A DNA stretch of 64,000 nucleotides from Jatrophihabitans telluris (lineage in GTDB: Bacteria; Actinomycetota; Actinomycetes; Mycobacteriales; Jatrophihabitantaceae): positions 1,798,001 through 1,862,000 of the forward strand of contig NZ_CP097332.1 of NCBI RefSeq assembly GCF_023516435.1. The letters run 5' to 3'. The notes beneath the pieces are model-generated. The model saw nothing but the letters and a program-made list of their open reading frames with translations, was not told where the DNA came from and ran no database searches. The number at the start of each line of letters is the position of its first letter. The stretch's first letter is position 1. Shown here one piece after another: positions 21,049 to 63,908 of this stretch. The position numbers and the translations under genes were made by a program.

Positions 21049-22281
21049 ATGAATCGCCCCGCCGATCAGGTCGACACCGACGGTCCCGCCGCCGGCCGCC
21101 CTCGCCGCATCGTCCTGCTCGGCTCGACCGGCTCCATCGGAACGCAGACGGTCGAGGTGATTGCTGCCGCCTCGGACCGGTTCGAGATCGTGGGACTGGC
21201 CGCCGGCGGATCCAACCCGGCGTTGTTGATCGAGCAGGCGGTGGCGACCGGCGCGCTACTGCTCGCGGTCAGCGACGAATCGGCGCGCACCGAGGTCGAG
21301 GCCCGGATCGAGCGTGACTGGCCCGCCGACCGGCCGCGGCCGACGGTGAGCTACGGCCCGGGTGCCACGAGCGACCTCGCCGGCGCCGAAACCGATGTGG
21401 TGCTCAACGGGGTGGCCGGCGCCCAGGGACTGCGGGCCACCCTCGCCGCGCTGGCCGCCGGACACACGGTCGCCCTCGCCAACAAGGAATCGCTGATCGC
21501 CGGCGGCCCGCTCGTGCTCGCGGCGGCCAAGCCGGGCCAGCTCGTGCCGGTGGACTCCGAGCACTCCGCGCTGGCACAGGCGCTGCGCTCGGGCACGCAC
21601 GAGGAGGTCGCCTCCTTGATTCTCACCGCCAGCGGCGGGCCGTTCCGGGGCCGCAGCCGCGCCGAGCTCGCCGATGTGACCCCGACCCAAGCGCTGGCCC
21701 ACCCGACCTGGGCCATGGGCAAGCTCATCACCACCAACTCGGCGACGTTGGTGAACAAGGGGCTGGAACTGATCGAGGCAGCCCTGTTGTTCGACGTGGA
21801 CTACGACCGGATCGCCGTCGTCGTCCACCCGACGTCGATCGTGCATTCGATGGTGGAATTCACCGACGGTTCGACGCTCGCACAGGCCAGCCCCCCGGAC
21901 ATGCGGCTGCCCATATCGCTGGCTCTCGACTGGCCGCGACGGGTGCCGAACGCGGCCCACCCGGTGGACTGGACTCAGGCCCAGGACTGGCACTTCGAGC
22001 CCGTCGACCACGTCGCGTTCCCGGCGATCGGGCTGGCACGGACCGCCGGCCGAGCCGGTGGCTGCGCACCGGCCGTGTTCAACGCCGCCAACGAGGAACT
22101 GGTCGCCGCCTTCCACGCCGGCCGGTGCGGCTTCCTCGACATCGTCGACGGCGCGGCGGACGTCCTGCAGCTGTGGCTCGATTCAGAACACGCCGCCGCT
22201 GGGAACCCGCGCGATGTGGCCGATGTTGAAGAGGCGGAGAGGTGGGCCCGGGCGCGATCGCTGCGCACGATCGCCTCCTGA
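21049..22281 (+). CDS. dxr: 1-deoxy-D-xylulose 5-phosphate reductoisomerase
   Basis: Second step of the MEP isoprenoid pathway: DXP to MEP with NADPH. The protein is 410 aa. NADPH-binding [14 protein letters not shown] lies near the start. [30 protein letters not shown] and [12 protein letters not shown] carry the substrate and metal residues, and [20 protein letters not shown] is the flexible-loop region. About 15 residues precede the conserved core. The start at ATG 21049 has a -10 hexamer six nt upstream and no ribosome-binding site. Two genes downstream, ispG supplies a later step of the same pathway. An 11-bp tandem repeat spans its stop codon. Confidence 0.97.
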
Positions 22282-22312
22282 TCGCCTCCTGATCTCGTCC
22301 TGATCTCTTCGA
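22269..22312. repeat. 11-bp imperfect tandem repeat over the dxr stop
   Basis: Four consecutive units begin with GATC (at 22269, 22280, 22291 and 22302). The first two are identical, GATCGCCTCCT. The unit is not a multiple of three, and the dxr stop TGA (22279-22281) is created at the first junction. Slippage here would change the last residues of Dxr only. Confidence 0.6.
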
Positions 22313-50602: not shown

Positions 50603-51997
50603 CTACCCGACGGCCTTGATCGCGGTCACGAGGGCCGCAAGGCCTTTCTTCGCATCGGCGAACAGCATGCTGGTGCGCGGGTCGGTGTAGAGGTCGTTGT
50701 CGATCCCGGCGTATCCCGAAGCCATCGAACGCTTGATCACCAGCACGCTCTTGGCGCGGTCCACATCGAGAATCGGCATGCCGGACACCGCATTTCCAGG
50801 CCGTCGGGCGGCCGGGTTGGTCACATCGTTCGCCCCGACCACCAGAGCCACGTCGGTTCGTTCGAACTCGGGGTTGATCTCCTCCATCTCGCGCAGCTGG
50901 TCGTAGGGCACGTTCGCCTCGGCCAGCAGGACGTTCATGTGCCCGGGCATCCGGCCCGCGACCGGGTGGATGGCGTAGGAGACCTCGACGCCGCGCTCCT
51001 CGAGCAGCTCGGCCAGTTCGCGCGCCTCGTGCTGGGCCTGCGCGGCGGCCAGGCCGTAACCGGGAACGATGATCACCTTGTTGGCGTAAGCCAGTTGCAG
51101 GCCGGCGTCGTCCACCGCCACCGAGCGCACGCTGCCACCACTGCCGGGGGCGGCCGCCAGGCCAACGGCGCCGGTGCCGAAGCCGCCCGCGATGATCGAG
51201 ACGACCGACCGGTTCATCGCGTCGGCCATCAGCTTGGTGAGGATCCCGCCGGAGGCACCGACGAGCGCGCCAGCGATGGTCAGCGTGGCGTTGGACAGCA
51301 CGAAGCCAGCCATCGCGACGGCCGTTCCGGTGAAGGCGTTCAACAACGAGATGACCACAGGCATGTCCGCACCGCCGATCGGCAGGACCATGCCGATGCC
51401 CAGGCCCGTCGCCGCGAGCGCCACGATCAACAGCACCCACGCGTTGTCGGCGCCGGCGATCACCCAGACACCCGCGGCGACCGCCGCCAGCGCGAGCACG
51501 CTCGACATCAGGCGCGATCCGGGGAAGGAGACGGGCTGGGACCAGTAGCCCTGCAGCTTCGCCGCGGCGATCAGCGAACCGGAGAAGGTGACGCAACCGA
51601 TCAGCACGTCGAGCACGGAGGCGATGCCCGTGCCGGAGGAGACCTGCGGGTGGTGCTGGTAGTCGGCGACGGCGATCAGCGCCGCGGCGCCACCGCCGAC
51701 GGCGTTGAACAGCGACACCAGTTGTGGCATGGAGGTCATCGCCACGGCTCGGGCCGAGTAGAGGCCGGCGGCCGCGCCGAGCAGGGCTCCACAGAGCAGC
51801 ACCAGCCACCGGGTTGCCGACATGGTCCCGCCGTGGCCGACCTGGACCAGGACCGCGACGACGGCCAGCGTCATACCGGCGGCGGATAGTTGGTTGCCGC
51901 GACGGGCCGTCGCGGGCGAGTTCATCAGGTGCAGGCCGAGCACGAACGCCGAGGCACCGATCAGCGAGGCAACCCGCACTCCGTCATCGAGGGTCAT
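50603..51997 (-). CDS. pntB: NAD(P) transhydrogenase subunit beta
   Basis: Membrane subunit of the proton-translocating transhydrogenase that uses the proton gradient to make NADPH from NADH. The protein is 464 aa. The N-terminal half has about nine helices (LIGASAFVLGLHLM to AGGFGTGAVGLAAAPG). The C-terminal NADP-binding domain III has VIIVPGYGLAAAQAQHEARE, YAIHPVAGRMPGHMNVLLAE and VVGANDVTNPAARR, which grip NADPH. ATG 51997 overlaps the pntA2 stop by four nt. It is the last gene of pntA1-pntA2-pntB. Confidence 0.96.
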   Translation of the reverse strand: MTLDDGVRVASLIGASAFVLGLHLMNSPATARRGNQLSAAGMTLAVVAVLVQVGHGGTMSATRWLVLLCGALLGAAAGLYSARAVAMTSMPQLVSLFNAVGGGAAALIAVADYQHHPQVSSGTGIASVLDVLIGCVTFSGSLIAAAKLQGYWSQPVSFPGSRLMSSVLALAAVAAGVWVIAGADNAWVLLIVALAATGLGIGMVLPIGGADMPVVISLLNAFTGTAVAMAGFVLSNATLTIAGALVGASGGILTKLMADAMNRSVVSIIAGGFGTGAVGLAAAPGSGGSVRSVAVDDAGLQLAYANKVIIVPGYGLAAAQAQHEARELAELLEERGVEVSYAIHPVAGRMPGHMNVLLAEANVPYDQLREMEEINPEFERTDVALVVGANDVTNPAARRPGNAVSGMPILDVDRAKSVLVIKRSMASGYAGIDNDLYTDPRTSMLFADAKKGLAALVTAIKAVG

Positions 51998-52332
51998 CGG
52001 TCGTCCCCCGGCTCGACCCCGGCATGGGGTGGGGCGGCCTTTACCGGCACCGGACGCTTCTTGAACATCTGCAGCATCCGATCGGTGACCACGTAGCCGC
52101 CGACCACGTTGGCCGCGGCGAAGGCGGCAGCGAGGAACGTCAAGACGTAGCCCAGGGGCCCGGACACGAAGCCGGACAGGATGATCACGCCGACCAGGAC
52201 GACGCCGTGGATCGAGTTCGCCCCGGACATCAGGGGAGTGTGCAGGGTGGCGGGCACCTTGCTGATCACCTCGAAGCCCACCAGCAGGGCCAGGACGAAG
52301 ATGGTGAGGTCCCCGACGAATCCGGTGCTCAC
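51994..52332 (-). CDS. pntA2: NAD(P) transhydrogenase subunit alpha, membrane part
   Basis: Small membrane subunit of 112 aa with three helices (LTIFVLALLVGFEVISKVPA; SIHGVVLVGVIILSGFV; YVLTFLAAAFAAANVVGGYV). In E. coli this piece is fused to the end of PntA; here it is a separate gene, the three-subunit arrangement of many actinobacteria and alphaproteobacteria. It overlaps both neighbours by four nt, giving tight co-translation. Confidence 0.93.
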   Translation of the reverse strand: MSTGFVGDLTIFVLALLVGFEVISKVPATLHTPLMSGANSIHGVVLVGVIILSGFVSGPLGYVLTFLAAAFAAANVVGGYVVTDRMLQMFKKRPVPVKAAPPHAGVEPGDDR

Positions 52333-53489
52333 GCCGGACCCCCCATGGCCGCGGCCACGCCGGGATGGACGACCCGTCCGTCGCGGGTGATCAGTACACC
52401 GGCGGTGATCTCATCGTCGGGGTCCAGTCGCATGGAGCCATCCTCGGCAGTCAGGTGTTTGAGCAATGCGGCGACGTTCCGGGCGTAGGTCTGCGAGGCG
52501 CTGGTCGCCAACCGGGCCGGCAGGTTCGTCGCGCCGATCAGGGTCACTCCGTTGGCGGTGACGATGGTGCGACCCGCTTCGGAGCCGACGACGTTGCCCC
52601 CCAGCGCACTGGCCGCCATGTCGACCACCACGGAGCCGGCCCGCATCGCCGCCAACGCCTGGGCGGTGACGAGTACCGGGGGGGTGCGTCCGGGAACCTG
52701 AGCGGTCGTGATGACGATGTCGTGGCGGGCGATGACGGCGCTCAGTTCGGCCTGCTGCGCGCTGCGCTCCTCCTCACTGAGCTCACGGGCGTAGCCGCCG
52801 GCTCCGGCACCGGAGATCGCGGTGCTCAGTTCGACGAACTTGGCACCGAGCGAGCTCACCTCCTCGCGGGCGGCCGGGCGCACGTCGTAGCCCGACACCA
52901 CGGCCCCGAGCCGGCGCGCGGTGCCGATCGCCTGAAGCCCGGCGACACCGGCTCCGAGTACCAGGACGGTGGCGGGTTTGGAGGTGCCGGCCGCCGTGAT
53001 CAGCAGCGGGAAGAACCGGTCGAAGTGTTCGGCGGCGACCAGCACGGCGCGATACCCGGCCACGTTGGCCTGCGAACTGAGTGCGTCCATCCCCTGAGCC
53101 CGGCTCAAGGTGCGCGGCAGTTGATCGAGGCTGATCGCGGTGAGCGACCGATCGGCCAGCCGCCGCACCAGGTCCGGGTTGGTCAACGGCGCGAGCAGTC
53201 CGATGATCACCTGACCGGCGCGCAGGGAGTCCAGGACGGCGTCGTCCGGCCGACTCACCGACACGATCACGTCGGCTCCGCCGATCACCGCGGCCCGGTC
53301 GAGCACGCCGGCCCCGGCCTGCTGATACTGCTCGTCGGAGAACCAGGCCCGGCCACCCGCCCCGGATTCCACGAGGACCGCAGGGCCCGCGCCGATCACG
53401 CGCTTGGCGGCGTCCGGATCGAGGGCAACCCGCCGCTCGCCGTTGGCGTCCTCGGACAGGACCCCGACCGTGAACCCGCTGGTGCTCAT
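52329..53489 (-). CDS. pntA1: NAD(P) transhydrogenase subunit alpha, NAD-binding part
   Basis: Soluble domain I that binds NADH, 386 aa. The fold is the same as alanine dehydrogenase: VGVLSEDANGERRVALDPDA at the start, VLVLGAGVAGLQAIGTARRL as the Rossmann motif (about residue 170), and VVDMAASALGGNVVGSEAGR. It lacks the RQD-type catalytic residues of alanine dehydrogenase and is therefore not a dehydrogenase. The ATG at 53489 has GGAG about 11 nt upstream. Six tandem 11-bp repeats lie 31-96 nt upstream. Confidence 0.95.
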   Translation of the reverse strand: MSTSGFTVGVLSEDANGERRVALDPDAAKRVIGAGPAVLVESGAGGRAWFSDEQYQQAGAGVLDRAAVIGGADVIVSVSRPDDAVLDSLRAGQVIIGLLAPLTNPDLVRRLADRSLTAISLDQLPRTLSRAQGMDALSSQANVAGYRAVLVAAEHFDRFFPLLITAAGTSKPATVLVLGAGVAGLQAIGTARRLGAVVSGYDVRPAAREEVSSLGAKFVELSTAISGAGAGGYARELSEEERSAQQAELSAVIARHDIVITTAQVPGRTPPVLVTAQALAAMRAGSVVVDMAASALGGNVVGSEAGRTIVTANGVTLIGATNLPARLATSASQTYARNVAALLKHLTAEDGSMRLDPDDEITAGVLITRDGRVVHPGVAAAMGGPA

Positions 53490-53519
53490 ACGTGCTGTTT
53501 CTCCGCTCGGTGGTCACTG

Positions 53520-53585
53520 GGCTGGCGGGAGGCTGGATGGAGGCTGGAGGAAGCCTGGAGGAAGGCTGGATGGAGGCTGGATCGA
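53520..53585. repeat. Six tandem 11-bp repeats upstream of pntA1
   Basis: Units of exactly 11 bp begin at 53520, 53531, 53542, 53553, 53564 and 53575. The core is GGCTGGA; the last four bases vary (TGGA or GGAA mostly). One helical turn per unit places each core on the same DNA face. They lie downstream of a possible -10 at 53604-53609, so they may be transcribed in the pntA1 leader. The plus strand is rich in GG tracts. Confidence 0.8.
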
Positions 53586-53636
53586 GCTTGTGTCGTGGCA
53601 CGGACAGTAGCGGGCCGAAGGGAGAGGCGGCGGTAA

Positions 53637-53653
53637 CCTGGGTCACACCCAGG
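53637..53653. promoter_or_regulatory. Perfect inverted repeat between pntA1 and rpoZ
   Basis: CCTGGGT-CAC-ACCCAGG has 7-bp arms and a 3-nt spacer. If TACTGT (53604-53609) is the pntA1 -10, the site lies near -40 to -56, a common activator position. No regulator gene adjoins it. Confidence 0.4.
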
Positions 53654-53730
53654 CGCGTTCCTATGCGACGACGCGGGCCGGGACCGCCCGGCTCGGCCGG
53701 ACGGCGGCCGTCGAGGCCCGCGGGTGGGCC

Positions 53731-53783
53731 TGCGGGCGGCCGGGCGCGGTAGCATTGACCGGATGTGCGGGCGGCCGGGCGCG
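53731..53783. repeat. 18-bp direct repeat pair around the rpoZ promoter
   Basis: TGCGGGCGGCCGGGCGCG occurs identically at 53731-53748 and 53766-53783, start to start 35 bp. The segment between contains TAGCAT (53750-53755), a likely rpoZ -10. Confidence 0.7.
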
Positions 53784-53862
53784 CGAGGATCTGCCCTGGG
53801 CCCAACGGAACCCGCACACGTCAAGCTGCACGACCAAGCTACCGAACGGATTTGAGGCCCGC

Positions 53863-54132
53863 GTGACCAGCATCGCGTCCACCCCCGAAGGCATCACCAA
53901 CCCGCCCATCGACGAACTGCTCGAGCGCACCGGCTCGAAGTACGCCCTGGTCATCGTGGCAGCCAAGCGGGCCCGCCAGATCAACGCCTACTACAGCCAG
54001 CTGGGCGAGGGCCTGCTCGAGTACGTCGGGCCGATGGTCGAGACCGCTCCGCAGGAGAAGGCATTGTCCATCGCCCTGCGCGAGGTCAACTCCGACCTGA
54101 TCGAGTTCAAGCCGTCGGCTCCCGAGGCCTGA
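53863..54132 (+). CDS. rpoZ: RNA polymerase omega subunit
   Basis: Small RNA polymerase subunit that helps assemble beta-prime. The protein is 89 aa. The signature is [20 protein letters not shown] followed by [20 protein letters not shown]. The GTG at 53863 is chosen because GAGG lies five nt upstream and the conserved core follows closely; a longer frame reading from 53755 adds 36 unrelated residues. Its stop is 14 nt from coaBC. Confidence 0.95.
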
Positions 54133-54146
54133 GCCTGGCCGCGTTG

Positions 54147-55427
54147 GTGACGACCGAATCCGCAGCCGCAACCGGCACCGGGCTCGCCGATGGGCCGGCG
54201 CCCGGCGCGGGGCGGCGCATCGTGCTCGGCGTCTGCGGCGGTATCGCCGCCTACAAGGTTGCCGATCTGCTGCGCAGGCTGGTCGAGGCCGGGCACGACG
54301 TCCAGGTGGTGCCCACCGCGTCGGCGCTGAAATTCGTGGGCGAGCCCACCTGGGCCGCGTTGTCCCACCACCCGGTGGCCACGGACGTCTTCGCCCACGC
54401 CGATCAGATACCCCACGTCCGGCTCGGCCGTGGTGCCGACCTCGTCGTCGTGGCCCCGGCCACGGCTGACGTGCTGGCCAAAGCCGCGCACGGCCTGGCC
54501 GACGACCTGCTGACCAACACCCTGCTGACGGCCCGCTGCCCGGTGCTGTTCGTCCCGGCGATGCACACCGAGATGTGGGAGCACCCGGCGACGGTCGACA
54601 ACGTCGCCACCCTTCGGCGTCGGGGCTGCGTGGTCGTGGAACCCGCGACCGGTCGGCTCACCGGGGCCGACACCGGCAAGGGGCGCCTGCCCGAGCCGGC
54701 CGAGATCGCGCGGCTGGCCGAGCTGTTGCTACGCCGACCGGGCGCTCTGGTCCCCGACCTGAGTGGGGTCCGGGTCCTCATCACCGCAGGCGGCACCCGG
54801 GAGCCCCTCGACCCGGTTCGCTACCTCGGCAACCGATCGTCGGGCCGGCAAGGGTTCGAGATCGCCTCTGTCGCCGCTGCCCGCGGCGCGCAGGTGAGCC
54901 TCATCGCAGCGAACGTCGAACTGCCGACGCCGGCCGGTGCCGAGCTCGTGCGGGTCGAGACCGCAGAACAGCTGCGACAGGCCACACATGCCGCGGCCAA
55001 GGACGCCGACGTCGTGATCATGGCGGCCGCCGTAGCCGACTTCCGCCCGGTGACCACGGTCGAGCACAAGATCAAGAAGTCCGAGGCAGCACCGGAACCC
55101 GTCGAGCTGGTCGGCAACCCAGACATCCTGGTGGAGCTGGTGGCCGCCCGCGACGCCGGGGAGTTCGCCGCCGTCGTGGTGGGATTCGCCGCCGAAACGG
55201 GTGACCAGACCGGTGACGTCCTCAGCCACGGCCGCGCCAAGTTGGCGCGCAAGGGCTGTGACCTGCTGGTGGTGAACGCGGTGGGAGCCGGACGGGCCTT
55301 CGGTCAGTCCGACAACGCCGCGATCATCCTCGACCGCGACGGCAGGGAGACCGAAGTGCCGTTCGGACCGAAGGCCCTGGTGGCGGCCGCGGTGTGCGAT
55401 GCCGTGGTTTCCCGCCTCAATCGCTAG
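54147..55427 (+). CDS. coaBC: Bifunctional CoaBC (phosphopantothenoylcysteine synthetase/decarboxylase)
   Basis: Two steps of coenzyme A synthesis in one protein. It is 426 aa from GTG 54147; TTG at 54144 is one codon earlier. The flavin-dependent decarboxylase is N-terminal: [40 protein letters not shown] and [16 protein letters not shown]. The ligase is C-terminal: [20 protein letters not shown] then [15 protein letters not shown], and [20 protein letters not shown]. No clear ribosome-binding site is present; rpoZ is 14 nt upstream and may couple. Confidence 0.96.
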
Positions 55428-58861: not shown

Positions 58862-58876
58862 ACTCCCCGCGCTCCG

Positions 58877-58951
58877 GTTGAGGTTGCCCTCCTTGCTCGC
58901 GAGAAAGGCAACCTCAACGGATCGTGGGTGAGCAAGAAGGGCAACCTCAAC
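58877..58951. terminator. Alternative hairpins at the priA / MFS junction
   Basis: GTTGAGGTTGCC (58877-58888) can pair with GGCAACCTCAAC at 58907-58918 (12 bp) or, extended to 22 nt (58877-58898), with 58930-58951 with a single mismatch. The two are mutually exclusive. They lie between convergent genes, and the second arm covers the MFS stop codon, so at least one should act as a bidirectional terminator. Confidence 0.7.
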
Positions 58952-60863
58952 GGTTGTCGGTCAGGGCGTCCTCGTAGGCGACGTCCTGCCCGGGGATGCC
59001 GTCCAGGGCGGCCCCCTCACGGGCCAGCGCCTGCATCACCGTCTCGTGCCCGTGCCCGTGCTCGGCGCTGACGGTTCGGCTGGACGCGTGAGTGGACGTG
59101 TGGTCGGTCGCGGAGCCGGATCCCTGGCCGGACTTGGCGAGCTCGGACTTGGCGAGCCCGGCATTCGGCGGCAGATCGCGATCGGGTTCGGCGTGCACGA
59201 ACTTCTCGCCCCGCATCAGCGAGGCCACCGCGGCGATGAGCAGCATCACGATCGACGCGCCGAAGGCGATCAGCAGCCCGTGCTTGAACGCGTCGGCAAT
59301 CAGGTGCGGGAAGAACTGCTGACCGGTCAGAGCTGCGACATCGACGCCCGAGCCAGGCTGAAGCTGTTGCGGATCGACCTGGTGAACCAACTGCTGGATC
59401 GGGTTGTCGCCGAGGAAGGCCGCGAACAGGGTCCCGACGGGCGGAATGTGCGAAATCGTGTGGGCTGCCTCGGGCGTGATACCGAGCTTGGTCAGGCCTG
59501 CGTACATCGAGTCCGGCAGTCGGCTGGCCAGCCCGATCGCCATCAGTGTGAAGAAGCCGCCCATTGACAGGACCATCCCGGCGTTCATGCCGGTGGCCCG
59601 GATACCGGAGGCCGCACCACGCTCGGAGGCGGGCACCGCGTTCATGATCGCCGCCGAGTTGGGGGCGGCCATCAAGCTCATCCCGATACCGTTGGCGGCC
59701 AGCAGGGCGGCGAACACCACGTAGTTGAAGTCCGCCGGAATCAGGATCAGGCCCAGGAACGTGGCCGCGGTGAGCAGCAGCCCACCGGTGGCGAAGGCCC
59801 TCGCCCCGAACCGGTCGGACAGCGCGCCCGAGGCGGGGCCCGCGATCAGGAATCCGACGGTCAGCGGAAGCATGTAGATACCGGCCCAGAGCGGGGTGTC
59901 GTGGAAGGCGTAGCCGTGCAGCGGCAACCAGATCCCCTGCAGCCAGATGATCAGCATGAACTGCAGACCACCGCGTGCCATCGACGAGAGGAAGTTGACG
60001 CTCTGCCCCGCCGCGAACGCCCTGATTCGGAACAGCGACAGGTCCATCATCGGATCGGCGACGCGGGTCTCGATGAACCCGAAGGCGATCAGCAGGAGCC
60101 CGCCGCCGATCAGACCGGTCAGCACCTTCGGTGACGTCCAGCCCATGGTGTGACTGCCGTAGGGCTGCAGGCCGTAGGTGATGGCGACCAGGATCGCGAT
60201 CAGGCCGATGCCGAAGCTGAGGTTGCCCCACCAGTCGATAGCGATCCGGGCCGCGTTGTTGCGCGGCTTGTCCCGCAGGCTGCGATAGCCCATCCAGGTG
60301 CCCCAGATCCCGACGGGCACGCTGACCCAGAACACCGCACGCCAGTGCCATTCCGACAGCAGGCCGCCGATCACCAGGCCGAGGAAGGACCCGCCGATGC
60401 CGGCGACCTGGTTGACACCGAGGGCGAACCCGCGCCGGTCGGCAGGGAAGGCGTCGGTGATCAGGGCGGTCGAGTTCGCGGTCAGCATGGCGCCGCCGAC
60501 ACCCTGCACCACTCGCAGGACGATGAGTTCGAGGGCCCCGGCGGCGCCGCTGTTCGGGATCAGCGCGCAGGCGATCGAGGCGATCGTGAAGATCAGGAAG
60601 CCCAGGTTGAACAGCTTCGCGCGCCCGTACTGATCACCGAGCCGCCCGAAGGTCACGACCAGGACCGCTGTGACCAACAGATAGCCCATCAGCATCCACA
60701 GCAGGTAGGAGATGTTGGACGGTGCCAGCGGATCGAGTCCGAGTCCGGCGAAGATCGCCGGCAGCGAGATGAGCAGGATCGAGGAGTTCAGGGTCGCGGC
60801 CAGGATGCCGACGGTGGTCACGGACAGCGCGACGCGGCGCTCGTGAGCAGCAGGATCAAGCAC
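58947..60863 (-). CDS. MFS drug exporter, DHA2 (EmrB/QacA) family
   Basis: Proton-coupled exporter of 638 aa with 14 predicted helices. It opens TVGILAATLNSSILLISLPA. The A-motif is GRLGDQYGRAKLFNLGFLIF, and QGVGGAMLTANSTALITDAF with GVNQVAGIGGSFLGL is motif C of drug/H+ antiporters. The last 90 residues are a hydrophilic tail rich in His, Ser and Glu. The GTG at 60863 follows GGAAGGA. A MarR/TetR-like operator lies 19-33 nt upstream. No regulator gene is adjacent. Confidence 0.92.
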   Translation of the reverse strand: MLDPAAHERRVALSVTTVGILAATLNSSILLISLPAIFAGLGLDPLAPSNISYLLWMLMGYLLVTAVLVVTFGRLGDQYGRAKLFNLGFLIFTIASIACALIPNSGAAGALELIVLRVVQGVGGAMLTANSTALITDAFPADRRGFALGVNQVAGIGGSFLGLVIGGLLSEWHWRAVFWVSVPVGIWGTWMGYRSLRDKPRNNAARIAIDWWGNLSFGIGLIAILVAITYGLQPYGSHTMGWTSPKVLTGLIGGGLLLIAFGFIETRVADPMMDLSLFRIRAFAAGQSVNFLSSMARGGLQFMLIIWLQGIWLPLHGYAFHDTPLWAGIYMLPLTVGFLIAGPASGALSDRFGARAFATGGLLLTAATFLGLILIPADFNYVVFAALLAANGIGMSLMAAPNSAAIMNAVPASERGAASGIRATGMNAGMVLSMGGFFTLMAIGLASRLPDSMYAGLTKLGITPEAAHTISHIPPVGTLFAAFLGDNPIQQLVHQVDPQQLQPGSGVDVAALTGQQFFPHLIADAFKHGLLIAFGASIVMLLIAAVASLMRGEKFVHAEPDRDLPPNAGLAKSELAKSGQGSGSATDHTSTHASSRTVSAEHGHGHETVMQALAREGAALDGIPGQDVAYEDALTDNR

Positions 60864-62484: not shown

Positions 62485-63859
62485 CCAGGCGCGCCGAGTT
62501 GCCTACGAGTTGTTGCAGGCGGTCAGCCGGGACGACGGGTACGCCAACCTCGTGCTGCCGCGCCTGCTGGACTCGGCCGCCCTCACCGGTCGTGACGCAG
62601 GGCTGGCCACCGAACTCGGCTACGGCACGTTGCGGGCGTCGGGAGTTCTCGATGAGATTCTGTCCCGCTGCGCCACCCGACCGCTGGACGACATCGAGCT
62701 CGGGGTGCTCGATCTGCTGCGGCTGGGTTCTTACCAGCTGCTCAAGACCCGTATCCCGCCGCACGCCGCCGTCGCCACGACCGTGAGCCTGGCCCGGACC
62801 GTGGGACACGCCCGCAGTGCCGGATTCATCAACGCGATCCTGCGCAAGGTCGCCAGCCGCGACTTCGACGGCTGGGGCGAACAGATCGGCGCGGGGGCGT
62901 CGGAACTGGGACGGCTGGCTCTGCGGTTCAGCCATCCCGGTTGGATCGTCGCCGCTTTCGAACAGGCCCTGGGCGGACCATCGGGCTCGTCGGTCGCCGA
63001 GCTGGCCGATCTGCTCGAGGCCGACGACGCCCGCCCCGACACTCACCTGGTCGCGTGGCCCGGACGCTGCGACCCCGCGGAGTTGGTCGAGCAGTCCGAC
63101 GGGGAGGCCGGGCCGTACTCGCCCTTCGCGGTGCGGATGGCGGGTGGGCGGCCCGCCGATATCGCGGCTGTACGCGAACACCGAGCCGGGGTGCAGGACG
63201 AAGGCAGCCAACTGTGTGCCTGGGCGCTGACCCGGTTTCCCGATGCCGTCCCCGAGGGCAATGCGGACGGTATCGCCGCAGTCCCTCGCTGGCTGGACCT
63301 GTGCGCGGGCCCGGGCGGTAAGGCCGCACTGCTGGCCGCGCTGGCGGCGGAGGCCGGCGCCGAGCTAGTCGCCAACGAATTGCATCCGCATCGGGCCGAA
63401 CTCATTGCCGCTGCGGTAGCCGGCTGGCCGGTCGAGATCCGGATCGGGGACGGCCGCACGCTGATCGACCACGCCGGCTTCGACCGAATCCTGCTGGACG
63501 CGCCGTGCACCGGGCTCGGGGCGCTACGTCGTCGGCCCGAGGCACGGTGGCGCAAGAGCCCGGCCGACCTGCAGGAGCTCGTCCGTCTACAGGCTGACCT
63601 GCTCGATGCCGCCGCCGGGCTGCTGCGCGTCGGCGGGGTGCTGGCCTACGTGACGTGCTCGCCGCATCCGGCCGAGACCACCGCCCAGGTCTCAGCCGTA
63701 CTGAAGCGCCATCCCGCGCTCGAACTCGTCCCCGCCGGCGCGGCGTTCGGTTCGATCCCGCGGAGCGAGGCCGCCGGGTTGGCCGAGGCGGTCCAACTGT
63801 GGCCGCATCGGCACGGCACCGACGCGATGTTCTTCGCCGCGTTCCGCCGCAACCGGTAA
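62477..63859 (+). CDS. rsmB: 16S rRNA cytosine-C5 methyltransferase RsmB
   Basis: Methylates C967 of 16S rRNA using SAM; also called Sun. The protein is 460 aa from TTG 62477. An N-terminal NusB-like domain ([20 protein letters not shown] and [20 protein letters not shown]) is followed by the methylase domain with [38 protein letters not shown] and the catalytic cysteine in [15 protein letters not shown]. The TTG start overlaps fmt by eight nt; it is chosen because the conserved sequence begins two residues later, but other starts are possible. A 16-bp repeat array begins inside its last codons. Confidence 0.93.
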
Positions 63860-63908
63860 CCGCCGCAGCCGGTAACCGCCGAAGCCGGTAACCGCCGAAG
63901 CCGGTAAG
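63851..63908. repeat. 16-bp tandem repeat over the rsmB stop
   Basis: Units of 16 bp begin at 63851, 63867, 63883 and 63899 (the last partial). The second and third are identical, AGCCGGTAACCGCCGA; each contains the small palindrome CGGTAACCG. The rsmB stop codon TAA (63857-63859) lies in the first unit. No gene is visible in the remaining 92 bp to the window edge. Confidence 0.8.

Follow-up and report, generated by a model that had tools for sequence, protein, structure and literature searches.

The six 11-bp tandem repeats in front of the transhydrogenase gene pntA probably represent a lineage-specific minisatellite that has no dedicated regulator, with control of the operon exerted by a conserved upstream promoter that carries a Crp-type site. 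The array was detected in the window, the 64,000-nucleotide stretch of the Jatrophihabitans telluris genome analyzed here, and, judging from its position, is located within the probable untranslated leader of the pntA mRNA. According to this explanation, an 11-bp C-rich unit would have been multiplied in the leader by local duplication or slippage, and the untranslated leader would be a weakly constrained sequence. No dedicated regulator would act on the array, and any effect would be exerted via leader length and base composition. The operon would be controlled from upstream, through the -10 element TACTGT and the Crp-type site near -42.5, where a bound Crp dimer would serve as a class II activator. 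The array looks young and probably lacks a function.

The locus contains the following features.

50603–51997, minus strand: pntB, transhydrogenase beta subunit (PNTB, 464 aa)
51994–52332, minus strand: second part of the alpha subunit, 4TM region (PNTB_4TM, 112 aa)
52329–53489, minus strand: pntA, first part of the transhydrogenase alpha subunit (AlaDh_PNT, 386 aa)
53490–53597, minus strand: pntA 5' leader of about 108 nt, inferred from the -10 element
53520–53585, minus strand (pntA strand): tandem array of six 11-bp units, identified by direct reading, TRF and lag identity
53604–53609, minus strand: -10-like TACTGT of the putative pntA promoter, kept in G003, G004 and G006, and TAGTGT in G007 and G008
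53632–53647, minus strand: conserved Crp-like site TGTGACCCAGGTTACC, centered at about -42.5, identified by conservation and consensus scoring
53637–53653, no strand assigned: perfect 17-bp inverted repeat of 7-3-7 structure (CCTGGGT-CAC-ACCCAGG), overlapping the Crp-like site
53863–54132, plus strand: rpoZ, RNA polymerase omega subunit, divergent neighbor (89 aa)

The operon downstream of the array is a transhydrogenase operon as originally predicted, with three genes encoding AlaDh_PNT, PNTB_4TM and PNTB. With pntA starting at 53489 on the minus strand, the array falls in the middle of the inferred leader and downstream of the promoter, the transcription start being assumed 7 nt past the -10 element. 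No consensus promoter or terminator was found by scanning 53400–53900, and the -10 candidate therefore rests on conservation; in four species its spacing to a conserved element further upstream is constant, which supports the proposed placement of the repeats in the leader. A coding array was considered and rejected: the pntA open frame spans only 394 aa compared with 386 aa from the ATG, so that it ends a short way before the ATG, and the period of 11 is not divisible by 3. No structured RNA was matched in Rfam up to an E value of 1 in 52900–54200.

The six repeats, the -10-like TACTGT and the inverted repeat reported in the original prediction were all recovered at the positions listed above. 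The unit approximates CCATCCAGCCT on the pntA strand (GGCTGGATGGA on the plus strand). Manual read-out resolves six units (53520–53585), and TRF called 53520–53581 (period 11, 5.6 copies, score 82), with imperfect copies showing 84% matches. Identity at lag 11 amounts to 46 of 55 bases. At this lag, the highest-scoring 51-base stretch reaches 43, whereas 30 simulated 64-kb sequences (second-order Markov model, best of lags 5–39) did not exceed 36, so that the head-to-tail copies exceed chance by both TRF and the Markov control. The proposed 7-bp core and 4-bp variable part describe the unit only roughly: two of the variable positions are nearly constant (A at position 11 in six of six units, G at position 9 in five of six), position 8 is split 3:3, and core positions 2 and 7 each show one deviation. 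Dispersed copies of the unit were not detected in the genome, where 29 matches with up to three mismatches were found compared with 36 for a reversed control; only three matches have at most one mismatch, all inside the array. No match was found in the plasmid records. The 11-bp array is not the sole array in the window: the same lag measure gives 47 for an array of 16-bp units at 63844 and 43 for one of 12-bp units at about 35199. The 16-bp unit occurs in 4.0 copies (63844–63907, score 107) and overlaps the 3' end of an open frame ending at 63856. A further 11-bp array, GATCGCCTCCT (3.4 copies, 22269–22305), lies where two plus-strand open frames meet.

Tandem arrays are an ordinary thing in this genome. 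In a 464-kb sample consisting of the window and 20 further stretches of the same genome, 52 arrays were counted (at least 2.5 copies, score of at least 60, overlapping rows merged), which argues for the MINISATELLITE reading of the pntA leader array. Twenty-one of them have only periods not divisible by three; among these, five have period 11, two of which (L155, L168) occur in open frames whose composition is that of coding sequence. The density is 11.2 arrays per 100 kb, or 11.1 without the window and L152. In small comparison samples, the corresponding values are 16.7 for G007/G008 (120 kb), 15.0 for G013 (80 kb), 7.5 for G004/G006 (40 kb), 5.0 for G017 (80 kb) and 2.5 for G025/G037 (80 kb). 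The genome also carries a dispersed repeat with the core GCAACGAGGGCAACCTCAACG, present in 372 copies with at most one mismatch (180 forward, 192 reverse) and in none of the 23 other family genomes. Its copies are found in arrays of period 31–32 (L169:4025-4269, L153:8325-8464, L219:1755-2212, L217:1865-2036 and others; degenerate copies at 58876–58952 in the window, between two convergent genes). Adjacent copies often face in opposite orientations, reversed next to forward, an arrangement that would permit a hairpin, and the repeat may be an amplified two-way terminator.

The comparison with relatives supports the minisatellite explanation. PntA of at least 67% identity is encoded in seven of the nine genus genomes searched, its own (G000) included, and G001 and G002 contain only a homolog of 45–46%. 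G005 was excluded from the leader comparison because its contig ends before the leader, which left six leaders (G000, G003, G004, G006, G007 and G008) of 72 to 117 nt. Absence of the repeats from relatives, which the original prediction had named, together with a deletion without effect, as evidence against itself, was observed for the 11-bp unit and its period in the five relatives read. The pntA leaders of G004 and G006 contain an array of unrelated 17-bp units (L003, L004; 2.6 to 4.6 copies by TRF), and those of G003, G007 and G008 contain no array at a TRF score of at least 20, a pattern of rapid unit turnover between related species. Alignment scores between the G000 leader and the other five were reached by 37 to 198 of 200 shuffles, so this leader aligns to the others no better than to shuffled sequences. 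The leader of G004 resembles that of G006 and the leader of G007 that of G008, and the G003 leader is faintly similar to those of G007 and G008 (scores reached by 2 and 7 of 200 shuffles). Besides its own locus, the region 53480–53700 produced only weak matches against 41 genomes (best E value 2.7e-4 among the matches listed), most of which involve its GC-rich end. A PntA scan of contigs kept the best 80 of 548 loci; where upstream DNA was viewed (11 of the 80 and three further family loci), promoter and array occurred together only at L049, on the same contig as that of G004.

Upstream of the leader, an island TGTGAnnnAGGTTACC-N22-TACTGTCCGT is common to G000, G003, G004 and G006, and G007 and G008 carry the version TGTGGGCAAGGTCAC(G/C), 21 bases, TAGTGT. 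The pattern TGTGAnnnAGGTTACC-N22-TACTGT matches four of the 298 genomes of the order, once in each and always at pntA, compared with two of the 298 for the reversed control pattern. The Escherichia coli Crp consensus is given as TGTGA-N6-TCACA in PMC4117774. The Crp-like site agrees with it at eight of ten positions in each of the five sequence variants present across the six species, with only three of five matches in the right half in the four closest species; a score of at least eight occurs at 55 of 464,000 sampled positions of the genome, of which eight fall inside the window. Class II activators are centered at -41.5, close to the center at -42.5 from the inferred start. Three proteins of the genome exceed the cut-off of the Crp helix-turn-helix family. 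One of them, L175 (230 aa), is a Crp homolog that matches 3d0s_A with a phmmer E value of 1.5e-103 and is almost identical to it in the recognition region; 3d0s is the Crp of Mycobacterium tuberculosis (Rv3676). For a subset of sites, PMC4117774 reports that M. tuberculosis Crp binding upstream of the start is associated with activation and binding close to it with repression. Crp control is the most likely regulation of pntAB, in which Crp would bind the site and activate transcription. The useful product is a specific pntAB promoter model in the genus, in which the spacing between a Crp-like site and the -10 element is constant, and if confirmed, it would tie NADPH supply to Crp/cAMP control.

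The original prediction placed the 17-bp inverted repeat at an activator position. The position is right, but the conserved element there is the partly overlapping Crp-like 16-mer and not the inverted repeat, whose perfect form is absent from the aligned relatives, where only the part within the island is kept. The window contains 13 perfect 7-3-7 repeats (68 with loops of 3–8), so this inverted repeat is unremarkable by itself.

The PhoP/SARP, Rho and structure readings are brought together here under the heading term ALTERNATIVES. The original prediction saw a resemblance to direct-repeat sites of PhoP- or SARP-type regulators, but it is scarcely probable that the units serve a regulator of this type (OmpR-fold) as operators. 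SARP sites do share the 11-bp period (PMC10972967, PMC10936776), and the PHO box fits in register at an average of 7.8 of 11 positions over five units. The fit of the array to the PHO, AfsR (consensus from PMC10972967) and SARP boxes was reached at only 2, 2 and 1 of the 127,890 positions of the window, which any array regular at 11 bp would be expected to show. Arrays with permuted columns fit equally well in 142 (PHO), 220 (AfsR) and 85 (SARP) of 1000 cases, and the unit therefore does not match a consensus beyond its composition and period. All six units lie downstream of the -10 element, where operators would block RNA polymerase, and no TANNNT occurs between the array and the ATG. SARP repeats are described as upstream, the last 8 bp before the -10, in PMC10936776, and the case of PimR shows that SARP sites need not overlap the -35, yet these are also upstream (PMC10972967). 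Neither the unit nor its period is kept in relatives. The GG-tract structures suggested earlier fare no better: no 3-tier quadruplex motif is present in the array, 2-tier motifs are commonplace in the window (384 and 350 on the two strands), and the folding signal of the G-rich DNA strand is weak (z -1.46, 17 of 200 shuffles as good).

The strongest functional rival is a Rho-loading leader, because of the extreme excess of C over G. A C-rich, G-poor leader with cytosines every 11 nt would act as a rut-like site and attenuate pntA transcription when translation starts slowly, which is possible but unlikely. The RhoTermPredict rule (PMC6407284) asks for a 78-nt segment whose C/G exceeds 1 and in which cytosines recur every 11–13 nt. 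The leader contains 49 C and 20 G, and its best 78-nt segment has a C/G of 3.73, unmatched by 12,786 other segments of this length taken every 10 nt along the two strands of the window; only three other regions of the 464-kb sample, both strands considered, reach at least this value. These are L152:13098-13256, L167:1558-1689 and L167:2823-2943, the first two of which contain tandem repeats. The leader RNA is no more structured than shuffles (z 0.73; 149 of 200 fold equally well). However, a repeating C-rich unit automatically yields a high C/G, the other five leaders have ratios of 0.75 to 1.06, and the chain of cytosines at 11–13 nt is eight long here compared with six or seven in those leaders. 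A version confined to this species, in which the unit number of a rut site below the Crp-type promoter sets the attenuation of pntAB, is distinctly improbable. A contingency (VNTR) locus at which copy number tunes pntA expression is very improbable. The leaders with 17-bp arrays in G004 and G006 measure 96 and 117 nt, respectively, so arrays here do change length between species. Nevertheless, the imperfect copies should slow slippage, and the species is represented by one genome, no second strain having been found and the nearest other PntA among the matches listed being at 73%.

The conserved island upstream, with no similar repeat downstream of it in five relatives, points to the minisatellite explanation. 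Arrays of unrelated units in the same leader in two species groups are a little unexpected under it, and the extreme C over G of the leader is allowed by neutrality without being explained by it. A function new to one species may also be compatible with the missing conservation. The case is mostly a caution: the 11-bp period had suggested a regulator's operator, a reading that finds no support in sister species or in the controls with permuted arrays.

Like bacterial intergenic minisatellites and VNTR loci, the array consists of short head-to-tail units with scattered substitutions in non-coding DNA, is not common to relatives and has many similar arrays in the genome; unlike them, it lies inside a probable transcript leader and is seen in one genome of the species. 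Its leader shares with Rho utilization (rut) sites a C-rich, G-poor composition, little structure and regular cytosines, whereas the property occurs in one of six species and the cytosine spacing is hardly distinctive. With SARP/PhoP direct-repeat operators it shares the 11-bp period and a better kept 7-bp part, but it is located downstream of the -10, fits as permuted arrays do and is not conserved. The promoter differs from actinobacterial Crp (Rv3676/GlxR-type) class II promoters in the weak right half-site of four species, and it resembles them in its TGTG-N8-YAC at about -42.5 from the inferred start, in a genome that encodes Crp.
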